Positions 1,461 to 62,888 of a DNA stretch of 64,000 nt are shown here, in pieces. The stretch lies in the IMG/VR virus record IMGVR_UViG_3300025128_006668, positions 1 to 64,000 of that record; one strand, given 5' to 3'. A program made the position numbers and the translations under genes. Origin of the DNA: a virus. Under the pieces are notes generated by a model. The model did not search any database and was not told the DNA's origin. It worked only from the letters and a program-made list of their open reading frames with translations. Each line of letters begins with the position of its first letter. The stretch's first letter is position 1.

Positions 1461-1820
1461 ATGAAAGCAATTATAGCAAGAGTTGAACTCGATGTAAATT
1501 ATAAATGCCCTAACTGCTTTTTACATTTTAGACTTAGCAACAAGAAGGTTCCGCAAAATAAACCTATGAACCTTGATTGCCCTGAGTGTATGCAGAGACT
1601 AACTATCCCTCCTCTTTTTAAATTTAATAAAAAACAAAAAACAGCTAAGAAGAATGATCCCGTAATTAAGTCAGCTAAGATGGCTTTAACCGCTATGGGT
1701 TTCAAGAATAACGAAGCCACTACTCTTGTAGTTAATAACTATAATGAAGGTATATCGGTGGCGGATCTAATAAAAGGAGCATTAAAAGATGTCGAATCCC
1801 CTGCGACCGGACAGACTTGA
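1461..1820 (+). CDS. Zinc ribbon fused to RuvA domain III-like module
   Basis: 119 residues. Residues 14-50 form a zinc ribbon (CPNC at 16-19, CPEC at 40-43). After a Lys-rich linker, residues about 68-112 (VIKSAKMALTAMGFKNNEA, then ISVADLIKGALKDV) resemble the C-terminal domain III of RuvA, the flexible three-helix bundle that contacts RuvB. The next gene, overlapping by 32 nt, is RuvB, which strongly supports the match. The Holliday-junction-binding domains I/II of RuvA are absent, so this may be a cut-down RuvB adaptor whose zinc ribbon supplies DNA binding. An upstream ATG at 1449 exists, but GAGGA sits correctly for 1461. Confidence 0.65.
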   Translation: MKAIIARVELDVNYKCPNCFLHFRLSNKKVPQNKPMNLDCPECMQRLTIPPLFKFNKKQKTAKKNDPVIKSAKMALTAMGFKNNEATTLVVNNYNEGISVADLIKGALKDVESPATGQT

Positions 1821-2712
1821 TAGCCTGATTGGGCAAGAGTCGATAATAACTAACCTTAAAGTTTCGATAGCTTCAACAAGGTCAAGAAGCGCAGTCCTTC
1901 AGCACTGTCTCTTCTACGGAGGTGCTGGACTAGGGAAGACAACCCTCGCAAGAGCATTGGCTAATGAGCTTGGAGTCAAGATAGAGATTGCTAACGGGTC
2001 TGCTATATCTAACAACAAAGATATTCTTCCTTATCTAATGAAAATGGAGAGAGGCTCTATCCTCTTTATTGATGAGATTCATCGAATGAACCGCAAGGTA
2101 CAGGAGTATATGCTTACGGTTATCGAGGACTTTAGATTGGACATTGTTGTTCCAGCTACAAAGAATAGTCAAGGTGAGACCGTGAGCATTGATCTCCCTA
2201 AGTTTACCCTTGTTGGAGCTACAACTGAAATGGGGGACTTAGTACAGCCATTCTTAGATAGGTTTAAGCTCAAGCATTTTATGCGGCCATACAGTGTAGA
2301 CGATCTGTCAGAGCTTCTCTCTCTAAACTGCAAGAAACTTGATGTTAATATGTCAGAAGAAGCAATAAGAATAATAGCTAAAGCTAGTAGAGGAACCCCC
2401 AGAATAGCTAATAATTTTCTTGAGTGGGTAAGAGACTATAAAATAGCTTACAATATAAATGGTTTACAAAAGCAAGAGGTCACGCAAGCACTAGAAATGC
2501 AGGGGATTGACGAGAATGGGCTAAATCCCGTAGACAGAGACTACCTAGCCGTACTCGAAAAGCTACCGAAAGGGTCGGCGGTCGGTGTAAATACATTGTG
2601 TAGCGCATTAAATATTGATAGGCAAACAATAGAGCAAAAGATAGAACCGTTCCTTATTAGGCAGGGATATGTAGCTAAAACCTCAAAAGGTAGAATACTA
2701 ACAAGGCAGTAA
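1789..2712 (+). CDS. ruvB: RuvB-like Holliday junction branch-migration ATPase
   Basis: 307 residues against about 330-350 in bacterial RuvB. AAA+ motifs are intact: LRP-R-L--LIGQ N-terminus, Walker A GGAGLGKTT, Walker B LFIDEIHR, sensor 1 VGATTE, arginine-finger region FLDRF, sensor 2 SRGTPRIANN. A C-terminal winged-helix follows (residues about 240-305, ending FLIRQGYV and R-LT). It should drive branch migration during recombination-dependent replication. It overlaps the RuvA-III-like gene, with AAAAGGAG upstream of the ATG, indicating co-translation. No canonical ruvA or ruvC is in the window. Confidence 0.92.
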   Translation: MSNPLRPDRLDSLIGQESIITNLKVSIASTRSRSAVLQHCLFYGGAGLGKTTLARALANELGVKIEIANGSAISNNKDILPYLMKMERGSILFIDEIHRMNRKVQEYMLTVIEDFRLDIVVPATKNSQGETVSIDLPKFTLVGATTEMGDLVQPFLDRFKLKHFMRPYSVDDLSELLSLNCKKLDVNMSEEAIRIIAKASRGTPRIANNFLEWVRDYKIAYNINGLQKQEVTQALEMQGIDENGLNPVDRDYLAVLEKLPKGSAVGVNTLCSALNIDRQTIEQKIEPFLIRQGYVAKTSKGRILTRQ

Positions 2713-40417: not shown

Positions 40418-41674
40418 ATGATTGATTTTATATTTGACAGAAGGAATTTTTTAAGAATAGGTTCTATTGGAGCAGGCATGTCGGCAGTGGGACTGTCTGA
40501 CTTTGCTCTAGGATCGCAGGATTTTACTAGTTATAAAGATAAAACCGTAGTCTGGGTATGGCTAGGAGGTGGCCCAACGCAATTTGAAACCTTCCACGCC
40601 CCTAACGACACTGTCCCTTCAGAATGGCAGCCTGTAAATGGCGCTATACATGACGCCAAGACCAACATCACTTTAGGCGCAGACTGGGTAGAACTTGCAA
40701 AACATACTTCAAAGTTAAGTATAGTCAATTCTTTCAGTCATAAAGACTCGTCTCACAGACAGGGGACGCACTTTATGATGACAGGACATTACAATCCCGA
40801 AAGAAGTACAACATCTATTGCTAAATACCCCTCTTTTGGGTCTATAGTCTCAGCCATTTATGGTGCAAATCACTCTAGTAATGGAGTGCCTACTTATGTT
40901 AAGCAAGGTAAGATTGAAGGAGATGAGGGCGCTTGGTTGGGTGGAGCATTTAAACCATTTGATCCTTCCAATAAAGATAACCTCACACCAAGAGTTGAAC
41001 TCGATAGGTTCTCAACAAGAAAAGAACTACTCGCAGGATTAGATGCTGCAAGAGTTTCCAGCAAAGGAGCTGAGTCAGTACAGTTTTACAAAGGTCAGGC
41101 TTATGATGTTATCCTAGGTTCCGCTAAAGAGGCTTTTGCTGTAGAAAAAGAAAGCGAAGCAACGAAAGCTCTTTATGGGTCTACAAAAGCTAAGGATATT
41201 GGCGAACAGCTTATCTTGGCTCGAAGACTTGCAGAAAATGGAACACGATTCATAACCCTTCATTATGGTGGATGGGATATGCATAGCAATATATCTAAGG
41301 CAATGCAAGGAAAAGTCCCTCCTTTGGATAAGGCTCTAGCAGGCTTCTTGCAAGATATACAAGACAGAGGGATGAGTGAGAAGGTTCTTCTGGTTGTAAC
41401 CGGAGAGTTTGGTAGAACTAAGTTTAATGCAAATGCAGGTAGAGACCATTGGCCTGCAATTACCCCTATGCTTATGGCAGGTGGAGAATATGAGTCCGGA
41501 AGAACGATTGGTGCTGCTGACAGATCCTATAATCCAATTGAAAAACCTGTAGGGCCTCTCGATTTACAGGCAACTTTATTTGACCACTTTGGTATTGACA
41601 CAGCAATTCAGCGTGTTGATAATGGCGGTCGTCCAAGATATTTACTAGAAGGTGAAGCTAAGGTAATTTTATAA
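40418..41674 (+). CDS. Tat-exported DUF1501 protein (copy 1)
   Basis: 418 residues. The N-terminal RRNFLRIGSIGAGMSAVGL is a twin-arginine signal. TVVWVWLGGGPTQFETF opens the alkaline-phosphatase/sulfatase-like fold, and DSSHRQGTHFMMTGHYNPE, HYGGWDMHSNI, VTGEFGRTKFNANAGRDHWP are DUF1501 landmarks. The family is exported, often with sulfatase-like or c-type cytochrome partners in Planctomycetes; biochemical role unproven. Its stop overlaps the next gene. Confidence 0.88.
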   Translation: MIDFIFDRRNFLRIGSIGAGMSAVGLSDFALGSQDFTSYKDKTVVWVWLGGGPTQFETFHAPNDTVPSEWQPVNGAIHDAKTNITLGADWVELAKHTSKLSIVNSFSHKDSSHRQGTHFMMTGHYNPERSTTSIAKYPSFGSIVSAIYGANHSSNGVPTYVKQGKIEGDEGAWLGGAFKPFDPSNKDNLTPRVELDRFSTRKELLAGLDAARVSSKGAESVQFYKGQAYDVILGSAKEAFAVEKESEATKALYGSTKAKDIGEQLILARRLAENGTRFITLHYGGWDMHSNISKAMQGKVPPLDKALAGFLQDIQDRGMSEKVLLVVTGEFGRTKFNANAGRDHWPAITPMLMAGGEYESGRTIGAADRSYNPIEKPVGPLDLQATLFDHFGIDTAIQRVDNGGRPRYLLEGEAKVIL

Positions 41675-43288: not shown

Positions 43289-44596
43289 ATGAAATGTAGA
43301 GGAAACAATATTGCTCGCCGTTCTTTTATACATGTCGGAATGGCAGGAGGAATAGGATTAGGTTTATCAGATTTTTTTAGAATCAGAAAAGCCCAAGCAG
43401 ACCAAAAGTTTTACGAGAGCGTAGAGGGGCCAGCAAAGTCTGTTATCTATATTTATCTGCCCGGCGGTTCTGCGCATCAGGAAACATTTGATCCTAAACC
43501 GCTGTCTCCGTTAGAGTATAGAGGCCCAATGGCTAGCATTGAGACAAATGTTCCCGGAATCAGACTTAATGAGATGATGAAAAACACTGCTAAGCTAATG
43601 GATAAGATTTCCATCATTCGCAGTATGACACATGGAGAGGCAGCGCATGAACGAGGCACACATAATATGTTTACTGGCTATAGACCTAGTCCAGCACTCC
43701 AATATCCTTCCATTGGTTCAGTGGTTGCACATGAGTTTGGCCCACGTCATAACTTACCACCTTACGTCTGTATCCCCAATCAGCCTAATGAGTTCGCAGG
43801 TACTGGATATCTAAGTAGCTCATTCTCAGGCTTTAGTCTAGGTTCTGACCCTGCGAGTGACGGGTTTCAAGTTAGAGACTTGAAGCTTCCTAATGGTGTT
43901 AATGATGGTCGCTTTGGAACACGTCGCAAAATGCTGGGTGCTGTCAATGACTATTTTGCAACTAAAGAAAAATCAGACTCTCTGGATGCCGTAGATTCTT
44001 TTTATGATCGTGCTTACAGCTTGATTAGCAGCGAAAAAGCCAGAGATGCTTTTGATATAAACAAAGAGGATGCTGTAACTAGAGACAGGTATGGTAGAAA
44101 TACCGCTGGAGCCAGAATGCTTTTGGCTCGTCGGTTAGTCGAAGCAGGGACGAGGTTTGTAACGCTAACTTATGGTGGCTGGGATATGCATGATAATATC
44201 GAAGCCGGAATACGAAGACAAGTCCCAGCTCTAGACCAAGGACTAGCGGCATTGATAGAAGACTTAGACCAAAGAGGTCTTCTTGAATCAACCTTGGTAT
44301 GTGTGGCTTCTGAGTTTGGCAGAACCCCAAAAATAAACGCCAATTCAGGAAGAGACCACTGGCCTAAAGTGTTTAGCACCCTAATGGCAGGAGGTGGAAT
44401 CAAGGGCGGTTTAGTATATGGAAAATCCGATGCGACCGCTAGTGAGCCAGAAGAAAATGCTGTAGGAGTGGAAGACTGGGCATCTACGATTTATAATAGG
44501 ATAGGGATCGTCCCCGATAAAGAGCTTATGGCTCCCGGAGATAGACCTATTGAAATTGTAGATGGTGGTAAAGTTATTCAAGATTTAATTATTTAG
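43289..44596 (+). CDS. Tat-exported DUF1501 protein (copy 2)
   Basis: 435 residues. ARRSFIHVGMAGGIGLGLSDF is the Tat signal. SVIYIYLPGGSAHQETFDPKP, HGEAAHERGTHNMFTGY, LTYGGWDMHDNI and ASEFGRTPKINANSGRDHWP are DUF1501 landmarks, and the C-terminal residues EDWASTIYNRIGI are typical. It shares the domain with copies 1, 3 and 4 but is clearly diverged, so these are old paralogues. AAGGA precedes the ATG. Confidence 0.88.
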   Translation: MKCRGNNIARRSFIHVGMAGGIGLGLSDFFRIRKAQADQKFYESVEGPAKSVIYIYLPGGSAHQETFDPKPLSPLEYRGPMASIETNVPGIRLNEMMKNTAKLMDKISIIRSMTHGEAAHERGTHNMFTGYRPSPALQYPSIGSVVAHEFGPRHNLPPYVCIPNQPNEFAGTGYLSSSFSGFSLGSDPASDGFQVRDLKLPNGVNDGRFGTRRKMLGAVNDYFATKEKSDSLDAVDSFYDRAYSLISSEKARDAFDINKEDAVTRDRYGRNTAGARMLLARRLVEAGTRFVTLTYGGWDMHDNIEAGIRRQVPALDQGLAALIEDLDQRGLLESTLVCVASEFGRTPKINANSGRDHWPKVFSTLMAGGGIKGGLVYGKSDATASEPEENAVGVEDWASTIYNRIGIVPDKELMAPGDRPIEIVDGGKVIQDLII

Positions 44597-44824: not shown

Positions 44825-46108
44825 ATGTTAAGTTTATCAAGAAGAAGTTTTCTGTCAGTAGGAGGTTTAGGCCTTCTTACTATGCCGCAGGTATTACGCG
44901 CTCAAAATAATAATGGGACATCCCACAAGGCTGTGATTAACATCTTCCTTGGTGGTGGCCCTCCGCATCAAGATATGTGGGATATAAAGACAGAAGCTCC
45001 ATCGGAGATTCGAGGACCATTTAAGCCGATCCCGACCAATGTGGCGGGAGTGCACATCGGGGAATGTTTCCCTGAAATTGCTTCAATGTTTGATAAATTT
45101 ACAGCTATTCGTTCTGTAGTAGGATCTGATGGATCACATGATGGATACCAGTGCGTTACTGGATGGAGTCGTAAAGACATGGTGTCCGGATCTAGCTATC
45201 CAGCTATTGGGGCGTGCGCCTCTAAAATATTAGGCCCTGTTGACCCTGCTGTACCGGTTGCAGTAGGGTTAGCGGAGGCTACTCAGCATATGCCTTGGTC
45301 AGAAGCAGGAGGAGCTGGTTATCTTGGAGATACCCATAAGCCTTTCAAGCCAAATGGCCAAATGATGAAAGACCTTAAACTCAATATGGAAGTAGAAAGG
45401 TTTAAGAATAGAAAAGCCCTTCTTAATGGTTTTGCAAATATCAATAAGCAGATAGACAAGGCTGTTAATGTTGATACGTTTACTGAAGAGGCGTTTGGAG
45501 TTCTTACTTCAAGCTCTTTAGTTGATGCTTTAGACTTGTCAAAAGAAGACGCAAAGATTAGAGAAATGTATGGAGATGGTAAGCCGTTTAAATTCCAATA
45601 CGACGGAGCGCCCACAGTTAATGAGCATGTGCTTATGGCTCGCCGCTTAGTATCTGCTGGGGCACGCTCTGTCACACTATCATACGGAAGGTGGGATAGC
45701 CACGGATCTAACTTTGATCTAGTCAGAGATCATGGAGCCAAGCTAGACCAATGCGTATCGGCTCTTGTTAAAGATCTTGATCAACGAGGTATGCTTGACG
45801 ACACACTTGTTGTAGTATGGGGAGAATTTGGCAGAACCCCTAAGATCAACCCAAAGGGTGGTCGTGACCACTGGCCGCAAGTTTCTGCAGCACTACTAGC
45901 AGGAGGAGGATTCAATCACGGGCAAACCATCGGAGAAACCAATAGGCTTGGGGAAGTTCCAGAGTCCAGACCTGTGCACATACAGGAAATCTGTGCAACA
46001 ATGTATAGAGGTCTAGGTATCGACACGATGTCCACAACTTTATTAGACAATACTGGAAGACCTCAATATCTTCTAGATCACAGAGAGCCTCTAAAGGAGT
46101 TAATTTAA
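44825..46108 (+). CDS. Tat-exported DUF1501 protein (copy 3)
   Basis: 427 residues. SRRSFLSVGGLGLLTMPQVLRA is the Tat signal with a likely cleavage after LRA. AVINIFLGGGPPHQDMWDIK, VGSDGSHDGYQCVTGW, LSYGRWDSHGSNF and WGEFGRTPKINPKGGRDHWP are the family landmarks. It differs from copy 2 in the first half but shares the second. The stop overlaps the next ATG by one base. Confidence 0.88.
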   Translation: MLSLSRRSFLSVGGLGLLTMPQVLRAQNNNGTSHKAVINIFLGGGPPHQDMWDIKTEAPSEIRGPFKPIPTNVAGVHIGECFPEIASMFDKFTAIRSVVGSDGSHDGYQCVTGWSRKDMVSGSSYPAIGACASKILGPVDPAVPVAVGLAEATQHMPWSEAGGAGYLGDTHKPFKPNGQMMKDLKLNMEVERFKNRKALLNGFANINKQIDKAVNVDTFTEEAFGVLTSSSLVDALDLSKEDAKIREMYGDGKPFKFQYDGAPTVNEHVLMARRLVSAGARSVTLSYGRWDSHGSNFDLVRDHGAKLDQCVSALVKDLDQRGMLDDTLVVVWGEFGRTPKINPKGGRDHWPQVSAALLAGGGFNHGQTIGETNRLGEVPESRPVHIQEICATMYRGLGIDTMSTTLLDNTGRPQYLLDHREPLKELI

Positions 46109-46392
46109 TGGTTAAACTAAATGATTGGGTTCAAAGAACTAAGTTTCCCCTTGAAGGAAACGCAGCATTTGACTGACATGAGTACTCTATCGCACAGGTT
46201 GTGCGTATTGATGAAGAGTGTGTGGAAGTAGACTTTGCATGTAGCTGTATGACTTTTGATGGAAGCAGCAAAAAGCTTTGGGCTCATGGAGAATATCTTC
46301 CTCTTGATGATGAGTCTTATGCGAAACATAAAAAGGCACATGACGCCTGTTGTCTTTTTGGAGAAGAACTGGAAGTAGATTATGCAACGTAG
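46108..46392 (+). pseudogene. Small gene with in-frame TGA (broken, or readthrough/Sec candidate)
   Basis: One frame runs from ATG 46108 to TAG 46390-46392 (94 sense codons) but is interrupted by TGA at 46174-46176, after MVKLNDWVQRTKFPLEGNAAFD. After it the frame continues with HEYSIAQVVRIDEEC and a Cys-containing part. A hairpin CGCAC-AGGTT-GTGCG begins 14 nt after TGA. Explanations: a nonsense mutation of a Trp codon, sequencing error, or programmed readthrough. The later half alone (GTG 46201) has no good start. Confidence 0.5.
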
Positions 46393-47599
46393 AAATTTTT
46401 TGAAACATTTATCAGTATTCCCTACCTTATCTTTAATAGAATCTCTTAGAGCTAATGAAGAGGAGCTAAAGAAGAATGGTAAGTCAGCTATCTTATTATG
46501 GATGGGCGGTGGTCCTTCAACAATGGATATTTGGGACTTGAAACCGGGTGCTCCTACAGGAGGCCCATTCAAACCTATCGGTACATCTGGAGATGTTCAG
46601 ATCTGCGAACATATGCCCCTCATGGCAAAGCAGATGCATAATGCTGCGATTATTAGAAGTATGAGTACGAGAGAAGCGGATCATATGCGTGGAAGATATT
46701 ACATGCATACGGGCTATGTTCCCAACCCAAGCATGACTCATCCTAGTTATGGATCTGTCATATCGCATCAGCTCCAAAGACCAGAAGTTTCTATCCCTAA
46801 ATTTATCTCCGTTGGAGGAGGCAGTATGGGAGCTGGTTTTTTGGGCGCTAAATATTCGCCGTTCGTTGTTAACAGCGATGGTAGAATAAGAAACCTAAAT
46901 ATGAAAGTAGACCAAAGATTCTACCAAAGAGCATATGCCTTGGACGCTATAGAAACAAGCTTTATAAATCAAAGAAGAGGTTCTGCTGCAAAAGAACATC
47001 AAGCTATACTGAAAGAAGCTTTTGGAGTACTCACAAGTTCCCAGATGGATGCTCTCAAGGTAGCTGGTGAGCCAGAGAATGTAAAAGAGAGATATGGAGA
47101 TAATGGTTTTGGTAAAGGATGCTTAATGGCTAGGCGACTAGTCGAAGCAGGAGTTCCATTTATTGAAGTCAATCTTGGGGGATGGGATAATCACCAGAAC
47201 ATTCATCCTATGTTAAGAGATACTAAGTTGCCTATGCTTGACCAAGGCATGAGTGCGTTGTTTGAAGATTTAGAACAAAGAGGGATAATTGATGACACTG
47301 TAGTTATTTGGATGGGAGAGTTTAGCAGAACTCCCCGTATCAACCAGAACGCTGGACGTGACCATTGGGCGCGTAGCTGGAGCGTTGTTGTTGGAGGAGG
47401 CGGAATGAACGGAGGCATATCTATTGGAGAAACAAGCTCCGATGGGACTAGAGTTGAGACAGAACCACATACATCGCAAGATGTTATGGCATCTGTGTGT
47501 AAAGCCTTAGGCATTTCGCTTGGCACAACATTTACTAGTAATAACGGCAGACCTATGAAAATTGCCAATTCTGGTAAGATTATTAAAGAATTATTCTAA
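46382..47599 (+). CDS. Tat-exported DUF1501 protein (copy 4)
   Basis: 405 residues. QRRNFLKHLSVFPTLSLIESL is the Tat-like signal. ILLWMGGGPSTMDIWDLKP, MSTREADHMRGRYYMHTGY, VNLGGWDNHQNI and WMGEFSRTPRINQNAGRDHW follow, and GDLV-like end motifs are replaced by DVMASVCKALGI. Cytosolic residues are short. It overlaps the interrupted gene by 11 nt and abuts the next gene. Confidence 0.86.
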   Translation: MQRRNFLKHLSVFPTLSLIESLRANEEELKKNGKSAILLWMGGGPSTMDIWDLKPGAPTGGPFKPIGTSGDVQICEHMPLMAKQMHNAAIIRSMSTREADHMRGRYYMHTGYVPNPSMTHPSYGSVISHQLQRPEVSIPKFISVGGGSMGAGFLGAKYSPFVVNSDGRIRNLNMKVDQRFYQRAYALDAIETSFINQRRGSAAKEHQAILKEAFGVLTSSQMDALKVAGEPENVKERYGDNGFGKGCLMARRLVEAGVPFIEVNLGGWDNHQNIHPMLRDTKLPMLDQGMSALFEDLEQRGIIDDTVVIWMGEFSRTPRINQNAGRDHWARSWSVVVGGGGMNGGISIGETSSDGTRVETEPHTSQDVMASVCKALGISLGTTFTSNNGRPMKIANSGKIIKELF

Positions 47600-53157: not shown

Positions 53158-53592
53158 ATGGCAAATAGTAGGACGGAGAAGAGCCCATATCCTTCCAGAT
53201 ATTCTCCGGGAGGATGGGTCTCTGGCTCTCAGTATATAACAGAGCTGATCTGCGAAAAAAAGGCTCGCAGAGAAAATAAGGATCTTCCTAGAAAGTTCTG
53301 GGAGGACAAGGACTGGGAAAAATATTTTAAATACCAGATAACTCTTGCAAGCCAACTTATTAAAAAGTTTGGTGAAGAAGCAGTCATAGCAGCACTAAAG
53401 GACAACAGGTGCTGGTCTACGTACTCTTTAAGGTCTCCCTTTCTAGTTCCTGTAATTGAGGAAAAGAAAAAGGAAATATCTGACAACCGGCCAGAAGCCG
53501 AGTATAATATTAAAGACGAAGAAGAAGTTACTCATAGAAGTAGCAATAACAAGAAGTCAATAATTTCTAAGTTAAGGGATTTAGATGAATAA
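53158..53592 (+). CDS. Hypothetical protein, 144 aa
   Basis: Basic, soluble, with a probable helical core (YITELICEKKARRENKDLPR, then YQITLASQLIKKFGEEAVIAAL) and disordered charged C-terminus. It overlaps the recA-like gene by 8 nt. A recombination-accessory role is suggested only by position. Confidence 0.55.
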   Translation: MANSRTEKSPYPSRYSPGGWVSGSQYITELICEKKARRENKDLPRKFWEDKDWEKYFKYQITLASQLIKKFGEEAVIAALKDNRCWSTYSLRSPFLVPVIEEKKKEISDNRPEAEYNIKDEEEVTHRSSNNKKSIISKLRDLDE

Positions 53593-54562
53593 AGACATTA
53601 TCAAAGAATATGGTAATGTCCTTCACGATCCCGCCTCAATAACAGAAAGACCTTTAGAAGTCTTGTCTGTAGGCCCAAAGCTAGACATAGCTCTCGGAGG
53701 AGGCGTGCCTGAAGGTTCATTATTTATTATGACTGGCCCAGAGAAGGTCGGCAAGACAGTAACAGCTCTGACTTTCTGTGCCAATGCGCAGAAGCATTAT
53801 GAGAGGAAGATTTACTACGCGAACATAGAGGGAAGACTTAAGAAAAGAGACTTAGAAGGAATAACAGACCTTACATTAGACTCAGAAAAGATGCAAATTA
53901 TTGGCTCAACAGAAGGAAACATTCTGTCTGCCGAAAAGTATCTGAGCATTATTGACAACATTGTTCATACTCAGCCGGGATCTCTAGCTATTGTGGACTC
54001 ATTTTCTGCATTGTCAAGCGAATCTGAACTTACAGGAAACCTAGAAGATGTTCAAGTTATGAGCGTGCAAAAAGTTCTGGCTAAGTTCTGTAGAAGGATT
54101 TCTAACGTACTGCCCATCAATAGAGTCACTGTTGTTGGAATTACCCACCTGATGGCTAATATGAATAGGTTTGGGAGGGGGAAGACTAAAGTCGAAAAGT
54201 CAGGAAGCGCATTAAAATATCAGGTTGATGTAAAGCTTCATGCGAGCCACTCAACGGCTTTGATGCAAGGAGATACTCAGATAGGCCAGACTGTGCACTG
54301 GCAGATTACGACCTCAGCTATCGGGCCTCCGGGGCAGAAGGTAGAGAGCCATATTAGATATGGTAAAGGCATTTGGAAAGAAATGGAACTGACAGACTTG
54401 CTTATCGACTTCGGGCTCATCAGCAAAGCTGGAGCTTGGCTAAAGCTCCCTAATGGAGAAAAGATTCAAGGTAAAGTCAACTTGGCCAAATACTTAGAAG
54501 AGAACCCTGAGCAGTATGAGACATTTAGAAAAGAAGTGTTTGAAATGGTTGGTATGGAATGA
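53585..54562 (+). CDS. recA: RecA/UvsX-like recombinase
   Basis: 325 residues. LSVGPKLDIALGGGVPEGSLFIMTGPEKVGKTV contains Walker A (GPEKVGKT). SLAIVDSFSALSSESE is the Walker B/L1 region, VVGITHLMANMNRFGRGKT the L2 loop, and GSALKYQVDVKLHASHST follows the family. The N-terminus is short and the usual RecA C-terminal domain is replaced by a compact one. It promotes strand exchange in recombination-dependent replication. It overlaps both neighbours. Confidence 0.88.
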   Translation: MNKDIIKEYGNVLHDPASITERPLEVLSVGPKLDIALGGGVPEGSLFIMTGPEKVGKTVTALTFCANAQKHYERKIYYANIEGRLKKRDLEGITDLTLDSEKMQIIGSTEGNILSAEKYLSIIDNIVHTQPGSLAIVDSFSALSSESELTGNLEDVQVMSVQKVLAKFCRRISNVLPINRVTVVGITHLMANMNRFGRGKTKVEKSGSALKYQVDVKLHASHSTALMQGDTQIGQTVHWQITTSAIGPPGQKVESHIRYGKGIWKEMELTDLLIDFGLISKAGAWLKLPNGEKIQGKVNLAKYLEENPEQYETFRKEVFEMVGME

Positions 54563-54991: not shown

Positions 54992-55408
54992 ATGAAGATA
55001 CGTGATCTGAATAATGATATTCACAAATGGAATCTGCAGGGGTATGTTGTTCGTGCAAATGAACAGCGTCCCCGATCTAAGTTACATCTTGCCGCAAGAA
55101 ACATATTGATAGAAATGTTTCCCACTGTTCAGATATTAGAAGAGGTTCTAATTCCAATAACTCGCAACGAAAGAGGTTATCTGGATTTTTACATCAATAC
55201 GCTTAAGCTTGCTGTAGAGGTTCATGGGCAGCAGCACTATAAATTCAATTCACTATTCCATACATCTGCCCAAGATTTTGCAAATCAACGAAAAAAAGAC
55301 CGGCGAAAGCAGGAGTGGTGTGAGTATAATAATATAACGTATCTTGAGTTACCTTATAATGAAGGCATTGAGGAATGGAAAACGCGAATAGTCCAAAGGA
55401 ACGACTAG
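54992..55408 (+). CDS. Vsr/DUF559-like endonuclease (possible homing endonuclease)
   Basis: 138 residues. SKLHLAARNILIEMFPTVQI, then GYLDFYINTLKLAVEVHGQQHY and QRKKDRRKQEWCEYNNITYLEL match the PD-(D/E)XK Vsr-like fold (LDFYI Asp, AVEVHGxQH). Such enzymes nick or cut DNA, either in mismatch repair or as free-standing homing enzymes (EDxHD-type). It may act as a homing element tied to the motif in front of it. It overlaps the next gene by 34 nt. Confidence 0.72.
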   Translation: MKIRDLNNDIHKWNLQGYVVRANEQRPRSKLHLAARNILIEMFPTVQILEEVLIPITRNERGYLDFYINTLKLAVEVHGQQHYKFNSLFHTSAQDFANQRKKDRRKQEWCEYNNITYLELPYNEGIEEWKTRIVQRND

Positions 55409-59837: not shown

Positions 59838-60875
59838 ATGTCAATACCTATAGTCTACTTTAGAAGTAGCTCTTTCAACTCACACAGAATGTGTCCTATG
59901 CAATATTACATGGAATATACTCTTGGTTGGAGAGGGTCATCTGGAAAGAAAGCTGACAAAGGAACTATTGTTCATAAGGTTCTTGAGTTGTGCGCACTTG
60001 CAAAGAAAGCCTTGCAAGATGGTCATGAAATTTTTAAAGATAATGAGATTGGTGAGATAGAAACTGCTAACTATGATACAGAATATCTAGATGAAATTAT
60101 TGATAGGGTATACGAATATTATACATCTAGAACTACACATCATGACTGGAAGCCATTAGACCTAAAGCATTGCCGAAAATGGGTTTGGAAAATATTCAAT
60201 GACGACGACGGATTCTTTGATCCTAAGAACAGAACAGTTGTAGAAGCAGAACCACACTTTGACTTTGAAGTAGATGAAGAATGGGCAGAATATAGTTATA
60301 CCTTAGATGATGGTACCGTCTTGGAGGGGAAGCTAGCGCTAAAGGGAACAATAGACCTTATAACAGATGTGGGAGACGGAGTCTATGAGATAATAGACTG
60401 GAAGACTGGCCGCAGACTTGACTGGGCTACAGGAAAAGAAAAGACGATGGCAAAGTTGCAGAAAGATCCACAGCTAAGGATGTATCATCTAGCATGCAAA
60501 AAGCTTTACCCAGATGTAGAAACATTTTTAGTAACTATCCACTTCATGAATGACGGCGGTCCTTTTACACTCCATTTTCAAGATAGCGATATACCTGAGA
60601 CATTAGAGATGATAAGGGCAAAATTTGAGACAATTAAAGACACTAACTTTCCTCAACAAATAAAGTCATGGAAATGCAGCAAGCTTTGTTCTGCGGGAAA
60701 AACCACATACGAAGGAACAGATGTCAAAGTCATGGGCAACATGTTTGGAGCTCCGCTAACAAAGTGCCAGCAGACAGAAGCTATGATAAAAGAGAACGGA
60801 ATAGAGTGGGTGACAAGTAACTGTATGTCCCCAGAACATGAAATAGGTAAGTATAAAGCTCCCGGAGAAGTATGA
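59838..60875 (+). CDS. RecB/Cas4-like PD-(D/E)XK nuclease
   Basis: 345 residues. FNSHRMCPMQYYMEYTLGWRG has an N-terminal Cys (Cys19). KGTIVHKVLEL, the active site KGTIDLI and YEIIDWKTGRRLDW (Asp and Glu-x-Lys equivalents IDWK), and a C-terminal Cys set (KSWKCSKLCSAG, KCQQ, NCMS) fit RecB-like/Cas4 nucleases with a possible [4Fe-4S] cluster. It may resect DNA ends for recombination. Its stop overlaps the TnpB-like start (ATGA). Confidence 0.82.
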   Translation: MSIPIVYFRSSSFNSHRMCPMQYYMEYTLGWRGSSGKKADKGTIVHKVLELCALAKKALQDGHEIFKDNEIGEIETANYDTEYLDEIIDRVYEYYTSRTTHHDWKPLDLKHCRKWVWKIFNDDDGFFDPKNRTVVEAEPHFDFEVDEEWAEYSYTLDDGTVLEGKLALKGTIDLITDVGDGVYEIIDWKTGRRLDWATGKEKTMAKLQKDPQLRMYHLACKKLYPDVETFLVTIHFMNDGGPFTLHFQDSDIPETLEMIRAKFETIKDTNFPQQIKSWKCSKLCSAGKTTYEGTDVKVMGNMFGAPLTKCQQTEAMIKENGIEWVTSNCMSPEHEIGKYKAPGEV

Positions 60876-62221
60876 TGTACGCAACAGAGATTAGTCGAGG
60901 AAGGAAGCTGCTAATACCTAAAAGCAACATACAGGCAGAACAGTTTATTCAGAAGGAAGCAGCGTTCTTTATGTCCTGTGTTAATGCTTATATAAGGGAG
61001 CTACTAGAGTGGATAAACATATCTGACTTTGAAGTTACTGGCATAACTGATCATGGAGAAGTGTACCTAAGAGAAGAAGATAACGGTTTCTTTGTTGGGC
61101 CAAACGGAGGGTTCTTCGCACCAATAACAAAGAGAAAGAATGGAGAGCCGTTTGCGAAACCAAAGTGGAGTGATACACAGCTAAAGGCGATGTTTTGTAA
61201 TGTATTTAATGAGACGCATACTCATGATTCTTGCGCGTCTTGGAAATTAAATATTATTGCTAACGGTGCTAATAAGATAAAGTCCTCTATAAAGCGATTC
61301 AAAAAGAGGGGCGACTCATATGCTGATTATATCAAAGACATGAAACCGCCTGTTATAACCAACCCTACTATCTGCCACAAAAAGGCTTTAGCAAAGATTA
61401 AAGATGATGCCTTAGTAATAAGAGGGGCTAACAAACAGGAGGTCAAGATAAAAGACTTTTTTATACCCTACAAAAAGTATACAAAAGTTCATAAGAAGAC
61501 ATTTGGAGGAAACTTAGTTTTATCGAAAAAGAAAAATAGTAAGCATAACGAATACACTATAATGATCAAGTGCAAAAAGCATTTCTATTCTCCTTTAGGA
61601 TGGATAGGTATGGACATAAACAAATACAACCCTGAGTGGCTTGCCATAGCGGAAGATGCCAAAGATGGTTTCTACAACATACTTCCTAAGCCTGATAATA
61701 TTGATAAGATAGAAAAGATTAGAGATGACATAGACAAGATGATCGACAACAAGGAAAGATCATCAGGATCGACTAAGAGAAGAGCAAGATTAAGAAAAGC
61801 AAAAGATAGGGCTGTATCAGCGTATAGAAGAGAAATCAAAAAGTTTTTACTCCCGATGTTAGACTTCGTACAGTTATGTCGATTTGGACTTTGCTTAGAC
61901 GGTGTTGCTACAAAAGGAAGAAGCTTTGGTCAGCAAGAAATAAATTCTATACTTGAGAAAGAATGTATAAAGAGAAACATTCCCTTTGCTATGACAAATC
62001 CTAGAATGACTACTAGGTCTTGTTATTATTGCGAAGAGAATAATCCTAGGCCTAAAACCTCTGGGCCAGATGCGGGAGTCTACATTTGTGGAAACCCTCT
62101 TTGTCCTAAGTTTGAGTCTAGGGAAATTCCCCATGTAAATGCCGCTAGAAACATAGCAAGGCAGGGTAAGAAACGCTTTCTAGAGTCGGCGGTAGAAGAG
62201 GGTATAGCTAGCCCTGCTTAA
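60872..62221 (+). CDS. TnpB/Cas12-like RNA-guided protein with altered RuvC triad
   Basis: 449 residues. The C-terminal RuvC-like part is typical: motif I GWIGMDINKYNPEWLAI (Asp248), motif II region LCLDGVATKGRSFGQQ (Asp343 where Glu is usual), zinc knuckle CYYC (384-387) with CGNPLC (406-411), and motif III HVNAARNIA (His421 where Asp is usual). N-terminally a basic helical region resembles the TnpB WED/REC part. It is ATGA-coupled to the RecB-like nuclease, not flanked by an IS200/IS605 tnpA, and has no visible terminal repeats. This looks domesticated. Nuclease activity may be weakened, so binding or repression is possible. Confidence 0.78.
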   Translation: MMYATEISRGRKLLIPKSNIQAEQFIQKEAAFFMSCVNAYIRELLEWINISDFEVTGITDHGEVYLREEDNGFFVGPNGGFFAPITKRKNGEPFAKPKWSDTQLKAMFCNVFNETHTHDSCASWKLNIIANGANKIKSSIKRFKKRGDSYADYIKDMKPPVITNPTICHKKALAKIKDDALVIRGANKQEVKIKDFFIPYKKYTKVHKKTFGGNLVLSKKKNSKHNEYTIMIKCKKHFYSPLGWIGMDINKYNPEWLAIAEDAKDGFYNILPKPDNIDKIEKIRDDIDKMIDNKERSSGSTKRRARLRKAKDRAVSAYRREIKKFLLPMLDFVQLCRFGLCLDGVATKGRSFGQQEINSILEKECIKRNIPFAMTNPRMTTRSCYYCEENNPRPKTSGPDAGVYICGNPLCPKFESREIPHVNAARNIARQGKKRFLESAVEEGIASPA

Positions 62222-62342: not shown

Positions 62343-62888
62343 ATGATAAAGCTAGACTTCACAGAAGAGATGGTGAAAAGTGCTAGAGAAAAAGCACAAT
62401 CTCTCGGGGCCATAAATAACTCTATACTCAAGGGCGGTGGAAATGTTGCCGGATACCTTGGAGAGGAGGCTCTTGCTCCGTTTATCGGCGCTGAAATAGT
62501 CAGTAACAATAGAGGTCTAGATAAGTACAATCATGACCTACTCCTACAAGATGGTCACAGAATAGAGGTTAAAACAAAAAGGAGGACTGTCGCGCCAAAA
62601 CCTTACTACGACGTATCTGTTGCCAAAACAAGCAAGCACCAACAGCCAGACATATATGCTTTTATTAGTATAGAATTTCAAAGGGCTAGCTCAGGGCATC
62701 CTAAACAATATTTCGGACTAAAGAACATCTGGCTATGTGGATTTATGGGCGCACACGACTACTGGGATATGGCAAAACTGTGGAAAAGTGGACAAATTGA
62801 CAAAAGAAATAACTTCAAAACTCATGTTGACATGTATAATTTAGAGATAGCGGATTTACACAAAGACTTGTCAGGAATACTTGTATGA
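62343..62888 (+). CDS. PD-(D/E)XK-like nuclease candidate
   Basis: 181 residues. GYLGEEALAPFIGAEIVSNN, NHDLLLQDGHRIEVKTKRR follow the E ... D ... E-x-K layout of restriction-endonuclease-like folds (Asp in HDLLL, Glu and Lys in IEVKTK). It may be a resolvase-like, restriction-like or repair nuclease. AAAAGGATG precedes its ATG; it overlaps dnaE by 4 nt. Confidence 0.6.
   Translation: MIKLDFTEEMVKSAREKAQSLGAINNSILKGGGNVAGYLGEEALAPFIGAEIVSNNRGLDKYNHDLLLQDGHRIEVKTKRRTVAPKPYYDVSVAKTSKHQQPDIYAFISIEFQRASSGHPKQYFGLKNIWLCGFMGAHDYWDMAKLWKSGQIDKRNNFKTHVDMYNLEIADLHKDLSGILV

Follow-up and report, generated by a model that had tools for sequence, protein, structure and literature searches.

We found that the ruvB gene of an uncultured phage is preceded and overlapped by a small gene, here called Zn-D3, whose product joins a predicted zinc ribbon to a region resembling the RuvB-binding third domain of RuvA (domain III, D3), and we consider it probable that this protein is a reduced RuvA working with the phage's own RuvB. 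In RuvAB, the textbook machine of branch migration, the tetrameric core of RuvA is considered necessary for holding and opening the junction. The presence of a ribbon-D3 partner beside RuvB in a large group of uncultured phages suggests that the standard RuvAB recipe is not the only one. The stretch of DNA analysed here (the window, 64,000 nt) is the beginning of a virus record of 125,401 bases, which encodes tRNA genes, a tmRNA, a RecA-like protein and a DnaB-like ORF. The TerL of the window phage showed a similarity of about 25% to GenBank phages, therefore no lineage name was given.

Based on the ORF, its translation and the family alignment, the Zn-D3 gene (zinc ribbon, linker and RuvA domain III) occupies positions 1461–1820 on the plus strand and encodes 119 aa. 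A further in-frame ATG at 1449, which would make the product 4 aa longer, was set aside since an AGGA-like site lies at the usual spacing upstream of 1461 and close relatives begin at 1461, the likely start codon. An earlier note on this DNA had described a gene overlapping ruvB with two CxxC knuckles. This is what the ORF contains, with CPNC at residues 16–19, CPEC at residues 40–43 and an overlap of 32 nt with ruvB in a different frame. Directly upstream is a tRNA-Arg gene (1338–1410) that ends 50 nt before the start codon, leaving no space there for RuvA domains I and II. A Lar-like restriction-alleviation protein (1057–1326; PHROG 599, E=3.4e-10) is encoded just 5' of this tRNA gene.

The ruvB gene (1789–2712, plus strand) encodes a 307-aa AAA+ branch-migration motor with P-loop, lid and winged helix, and judged by its sequence it is genuine. 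The protein scored 337 bits against NCBIfam PRK00080 (cut-off 282), exceeded the Pfam cut-offs for all three domains (AAA+ P-loop, RuvB lid and RuvB_C winged helix) and matched P. aeruginosa RuvB with E=5e-65. PHROG matches to clamp loaders were rejected as an identity for this protein, because they reflect shared AAA+ homology and the RuvB equivalog scores far higher. The presensor-1 β-hairpin of RuvB is the docking site of RuvA domain III (PMC9477746, PMC2628435). Alignment showed that this hairpin is retained in the window RuvB (2137–2199, plus strand, residues 117–137), and it was present in all 28 partner-bearing RuvBs compared with it. The hairpin is also kept in RuvBs of the same viral clade without an adjacent partner, whereas some distant viral RuvBs have a reduced one.

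Sequence searches and structure prediction together give good support for homology between the C-terminal half of Zn-D3 and RuvA domain III. This region (1659–1796, plus strand, residues 67–112) forms three helices and follows a Lys-rich stretch, after which the protein reads DPVIKSAKMALTAMGFKNNEATTLVVNNYNEGISVADLIKGALKDV. Pfam RuvA_C (PF07499), the RuvA domain III binding module, matched residues 72–109 with E=1.3e-4 and 22.8 bits in a single-protein search (cut-off 24), and in the family search of the genome the score was 24.3 bits, above the cut-off. The RuvA equivalog aligned to residues 59–109 by its last 53 positions only (150–202), which correspond to its last domain. When a profile of 45 family members was compared with the PDB, the best match was the RuvA domain III chain in the RuvA-III/RuvB crystal structure (E=1.5e-6), and RuvA D3 chains also ranked first for a profile of five members (E=0.0015). 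In the AlphaFold model (mean pLDDT 77), the helices span residues 67–78, 83–93 and 100–112. The three best PDB matches of this model in Foldseek were 7pbm_H, 7pbl_G and 7x7p_A, all of them D3 chains bound to RuvB, with rmsd 0.7–1.2 Å, probability 1.00 and E-values of 0.06–0.2, which are explained by the small size of the domain. The assignment made in the earlier note, which hinged on a structural match of residues 68–112 to RuvA domain III, survived this comparison. RuvA chains were likewise on top for the model of a group-2 relative (L036). E. coli RuvA residues L167/L170/G171/Y172 align with L76/M79/G80/F81 of the window Zn-D3, and replacement of L167 or L170 in E. coli abolished RuvB activity in vivo, as cited in PMC2628435. 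Among the 45 aligned members, the position of L76 is Leu in 38 and hydrophobic in the remainder, that of M79 is mostly Tyr, Leu or Phe, and the four Cys and the D3 Gly corresponding to G171 are invariant. A PHROGs search of Zn-D3 returned no useful family, and a BFVD fold search gave no credible match.

The N-terminal part carries the putative zinc ribbon (1491–1607, plus strand, residues 11–49), assigned from the sequence, the predicted strands and the family Cys residues. Its two CxxC knuckles (1506–1517 and 1578–1589, plus strand) have the spacing C-x2-C-x20-C-x2-C and sit on a β ribbon with modelled strands at residues 11–15, 22–26, 36–39 and 46–49, and zinc binding is predicted; the four Cys are present in all 45 aligned members. 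The ribbon resembles MJ0042 and Zn_ribbon_4 ribbons in its CxxC...CxxC pattern, but these matches were weak and below the curated cut-offs (Zn_ribbon_4, E=4.9e-4), and no function can be transferred from either family. A Lys-rich linker (1608–1658, plus strand, residues 50–66) follows, with pLDDT <50 at residues 55–61, and linker length varies from 8 to 72 aa across the family, so that by sequence Zn-D3 looks like two folded ends joined by a tether. Mean pairwise identity was 41% in the ribbon half versus 29% in D3. The net charge of the ribbon is positive (median +5), and this charge and the strong conservation would fit a binding role without naming the target. To our knowledge, no junction-binding activity has been described for such a ribbon.

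The remaining parts of RuvA were then sought in the same genomes. RuvA_N (PF01330, the domain I OB fold) was found neither in the 125-kb record nor in any of 15 partner-bearing records, while control genomes were positive. Domain II, the helix-hairpin-helix and tetramer region, is likewise absent from the 119-aa ORF, which consists of ribbon, linker and D3 only. Because it lacks these two defining features of RuvA, Zn-D3 was not filed as RuvA. Sequence, fold and comparative genomics thus agree with the earlier description of a zinc ribbon plus RuvA domain III lacking domains I and II. Compared with bacterial RuvA (PF01330, domain II and PF07499), Zn-D3 shares the D3 fold and sequence, the hydrophobic RuvB-contact positions, the location directly before ruvB and a RuvB with the hairpin retained, whereas a four-Cys ribbon replaces the two domains that hold the Holliday junction (I and II) and RuvC is missing. 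RuvC had no match in the window phage's record and none over the cut-off in the 15 partner-bearing records; one sub-threshold match, within a 5392-aa frame, was dismissed. Isolated D3 binds RuvB in 1ixs and 7x7p (dsDNA-RuvB-RuvA domain 3), the arrangement proposed here for Zn-D3, but those are laboratory fragments, in contrast to a natural conserved truncated gene.

To gather relatives, IMG/VR was scanned with both the partner and RuvB. The window-type group comprises six relatives at 25–56% identity, or seven members counting the window gene, and a second group (group 2) is a larger set with a slightly different ribbon; about 89 distinct partner genes were recovered from viral contigs in total. 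The median dN/dS was 0.16 (18 close pairs, every pair from group 2), and by this measure these relatives are under purifying selection. The partner stop codon lies -32 to +17 nt from the ruvB start in 135 of 137 loci carrying both genes, a figure that includes some contigs counted twice. The two exceptions are a true bacterial ruvA-ruvB pair (L081) and a D3 protein on another anchor (L007, see below). The pair that the earlier note had suggested looking for in other phages is therefore widespread and tightly coupled, and the comparative data provide good support for Zn-D3 as the dedicated partner of the adjoining RuvB.

By tblastn of the window and group-2 partners against 50,697 GenBank phages, no homologue was detected at the limits used, and the L027 partner gave no credible match in GenBank phages either. 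RuvB matches in six inspected GenBank phage records, which served as positive controls, were rejected as phage genes: they have bacterial neighbours where annotated and a full-length ruvA in the place of Zn-D3 upstream in five of the six, so these bacterial-type loci appear to be flanking host DNA or host contamination. The family profile weakly recognised the bacterial full-length RuvAs of the control loci. A scan of genome contigs yielded one locus, on an 11.4-kb contig with phage-like gene order in a Chitinophagia MAG, and a host cannot be named from one contig.

In a tree of 73 RuvBs, 66 viral sequences formed one clade (99/97) containing all Zn-D3 genes, with a bootstrap that was not fully settled and some long branches. 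At least eight RuvB rows of this clade have no adjacent Zn-D3 and are scattered within it, implying several losses or replacements; Zn-D3 was not found elsewhere in the three largest records of such RuvBs. From this distribution Zn-D3 looks ancestral in the viral clade, and it probably descends from ruvA. The simplest history suggested by the sequences is that an ancestral phage gained ruvA-ruvB and that the front of ruvA was then swapped for a zinc ribbon.

Two separately placed RuvBs of the clade, without adjacent Zn-D3, have a different D3 protein elsewhere on their contigs. The protein on the L008 contig (148 aa) has a hydrophobic segment at its N-terminus, then a Pro-rich linker, and matches RuvA_C with 29.5 bits, over the Pfam cut-off; that of L007 is similar (E=1.6e-5 to the family profile). 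Proteins of the L008 type also occur in L195 and L196 beside rIIA/rIIB-like genes. These TM-D3 proteins (L189:1498–1944, minus strand; L007:5931–6350, plus strand; L195:7995–8357, plus strand) have an apparent N-terminal membrane helix, judged by eye, followed by a linker and D3, and the genes of L189 and L195 lie directly after rIIB-like genes. The contigs are fragments, so a Zn-D3 could be encoded elsewhere in these genomes. From its sequence TM-D3 is possibly a membrane-anchored RuvB partner, and since the anchor differs in two RuvB lineages while D3 is kept, D3 appears to be the constant part.

A conserved protein of about 135–140 aa (MNEEWYVIKNIGEFVDKTRAMVFNNFG...) of no known family is encoded before ruvB where Zn-D3 is lacking and before Zn-D3 where it is present. 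It lies just 5' of ruvB in L047, L048, L053, L059, L061, L072, L076, L078 and L080, occurs also at L036:3197–3619, and may be another part of the module. Most of the loci L036, L035, L041, L053, L060, L068 and L108 have the order rIIA-like GHKL ATPase, rIIB-like gene, small ORF, 140-aa protein, (Zn-D3) and ruvB, often followed by actin-like and protease-like genes. This shared order, with families assigned by eye, links the module to rII-like genes.

Published RuvA structures suggest how such a partner might work. RuvA D3 binds the presensor-1 hairpin and α-3 of RuvB, tethers the motor to the junction core and acts as a nucleotide-exchange factor for RuvB (PMC9477746; also PMC10272136). By analogy, the D3 of Zn-D3 would dock on the hairpin of the phage RuvB and regulate its ATPase, while the ribbon, standing in for the tetramer of RuvA domains I and II, would anchor the other end of the tether and bring RuvB to branched phage DNA, either directly or via another phage recombination protein. 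RuvB would then pump duplex and migrate junctions made by the phage RecA, before a nuclease other than RuvC cuts them. The suggestion in the earlier note of a reduced loader, with a ribbon that reaches DNA or a second protein, is plausible in this light. RecA was found in 13 and endonuclease VII in 8 of the 15 partner-bearing records. The window phage encodes a RecA-like recombinase (53585–54562, plus strand; Pfam RecA 6.8e-25, RecA_C 6.9e-9), the likely source of junctions for RuvB, and no endonuclease VII was found in its record. The candidate junction-cutting nucleases of this phage are an ERCC4 nuclease (112284–112757 of the record) and an HNH protein (112747–113091) with a weak NinG/Rap match, in place of the endonuclease VII that many relatives could use. 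A phage recombinase and, in 8 of 15 relatives, endonuclease VII are shared with T4-type recombination (UvsX, UvsW, endonuclease VII). In T4, branch migration is driven by a superfamily 2 helicase, not by a RuvB ring with a D3 partner. Shortly after recA, a 138-aa protein (54992–55408) has a C-terminal region like homing or intron endonucleases (PHROG 9084, E=3.3e-15).

Several considerations speak against a reduced RuvA: so small a partner cannot obviously match the strand-separating geometry of the RuvA tetramer, the hairpin persists in clade members that have no adjacent Zn-D3, such a ribbon has no known junction-binding activity, and host RuvA could serve the phage RuvB, as RuvA and RuvB from different species can complement each other (PMC9477746). 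A contribution from host RuvA remains conceivable. Such complementation would also fit a phage RuvB that uses host RuvA, with Zn-D3 as an accessory that adds a second partner (polymerase, SSB or nuclease) to RuvA-RuvB. D3 occupies only some subunits of the RuvB hexamer in RuvAB structures, leaving free sites (PMC9477746, PMC10272136), and some relatives lack Zn-D3. Nevertheless, the partner sits in exactly the place of ruvA, from which it probably derives, and its D3 and host RuvA would be rivals for one hairpin, which makes an accessory role very doubtful. In another reading Zn-D3 is a blocker or selector: bound to the hairpin, D3 may keep host RuvA off the phage RuvB, or shut down host RuvAB via host RuvB. 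Zn-D3 has kept the D3 surface on which host RuvA would rely, and isolated D3 does bind RuvB in 1ixs and 7x7p. We regard a blocker or selector as quite unlikely, however, because the gene is so firmly tied to the ruvB of the phage itself and its more conserved half is the ribbon, which would be superfluous for pure blocking.

Alternatively, RuvB and Zn-D3 might have been turned to replication or packaging, as a loader or dsDNA translocase that works at forks or DNA ends and has given up Holliday junctions. The absence of both the RuvA core and RuvC, the neighbourhood of the pair in relatives, where rIIA/rIIB-like genes and not a resolvase lie next to it, and a RuvB with all motor domains are compatible with this use. 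We find it unlikely, given that many of these genomes also encode RecA and endonuclease VII, which would make junctions and cut them, and that RuvB scores above the RuvB equivalog cut-off. A chance resemblance, in which the C-terminal helices would be an ordinary UBA-like bundle of three helices with no relation to RuvB, is scarcely credible and has been largely refuted. UBA domains do appear lower in the Foldseek list, and Pfam RuvA_C on its own matched only 13 of the 45 members, most of group 2 being missed, but the family profile matched RuvA D3, the best fold matches were RuvA chains, and ruvB coupling recurs in dozens of phages.

In the open full-text literature (PMC), no description was found of a phage-encoded RuvB with its own partner or of a ribbon-D3 combination; in a survey of jumbo phages, their RuvC was not coupled to a RuvB-like ATPase (PMC7824862). 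Our data suggest that a RuvB-based recombination step is carried by many uncultured phages. Since the Zn-D3 family keeps D3 and discards the core, the roles of the two can be tested apart, and the Zn-D3/RuvB pair is small enough for easy expression. A bolder generalization, which we offer tentatively and think possible rather than probable, is that the junction-holding core of RuvA is dispensable in nature and that RuvBs of this clade run via a portable D3 clutch on interchangeable anchors, mostly a zinc ribbon but in two or more lineages a protein with an apparent membrane helix; RuvB would then serve as a general translocase on double-strand DNA, able to be directed beyond RuvA-bound junctions.

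Several other features of the window phage were recorded. Its DNA polymerase III alpha-like gene appears, from the ORF sequences alone, to be split into pieces at 62885–64003 and, in record positions, 64040–64744 and 65849–67483, with an exonuclease-like and a nucleotidyltransferase-like ORF between the pieces. Between nuclease and polymerase genes, a 449-aa ORF (60872–62221) has a weak Cas12f/TnpB-type TNB domain (E=7.6e-4, below the cut-off). Four proteins with Tat-like signals resemble DUF1501 by eye (40418–41674, 43289–44596, 44825–46108 and 46382–47599); L068 and L195 encode similar proteins close to their D3 or ruvB genes, and such proteins may point to the host group. The phage tmRNA (9443–9780) encodes the tag AEKNFSLAA.
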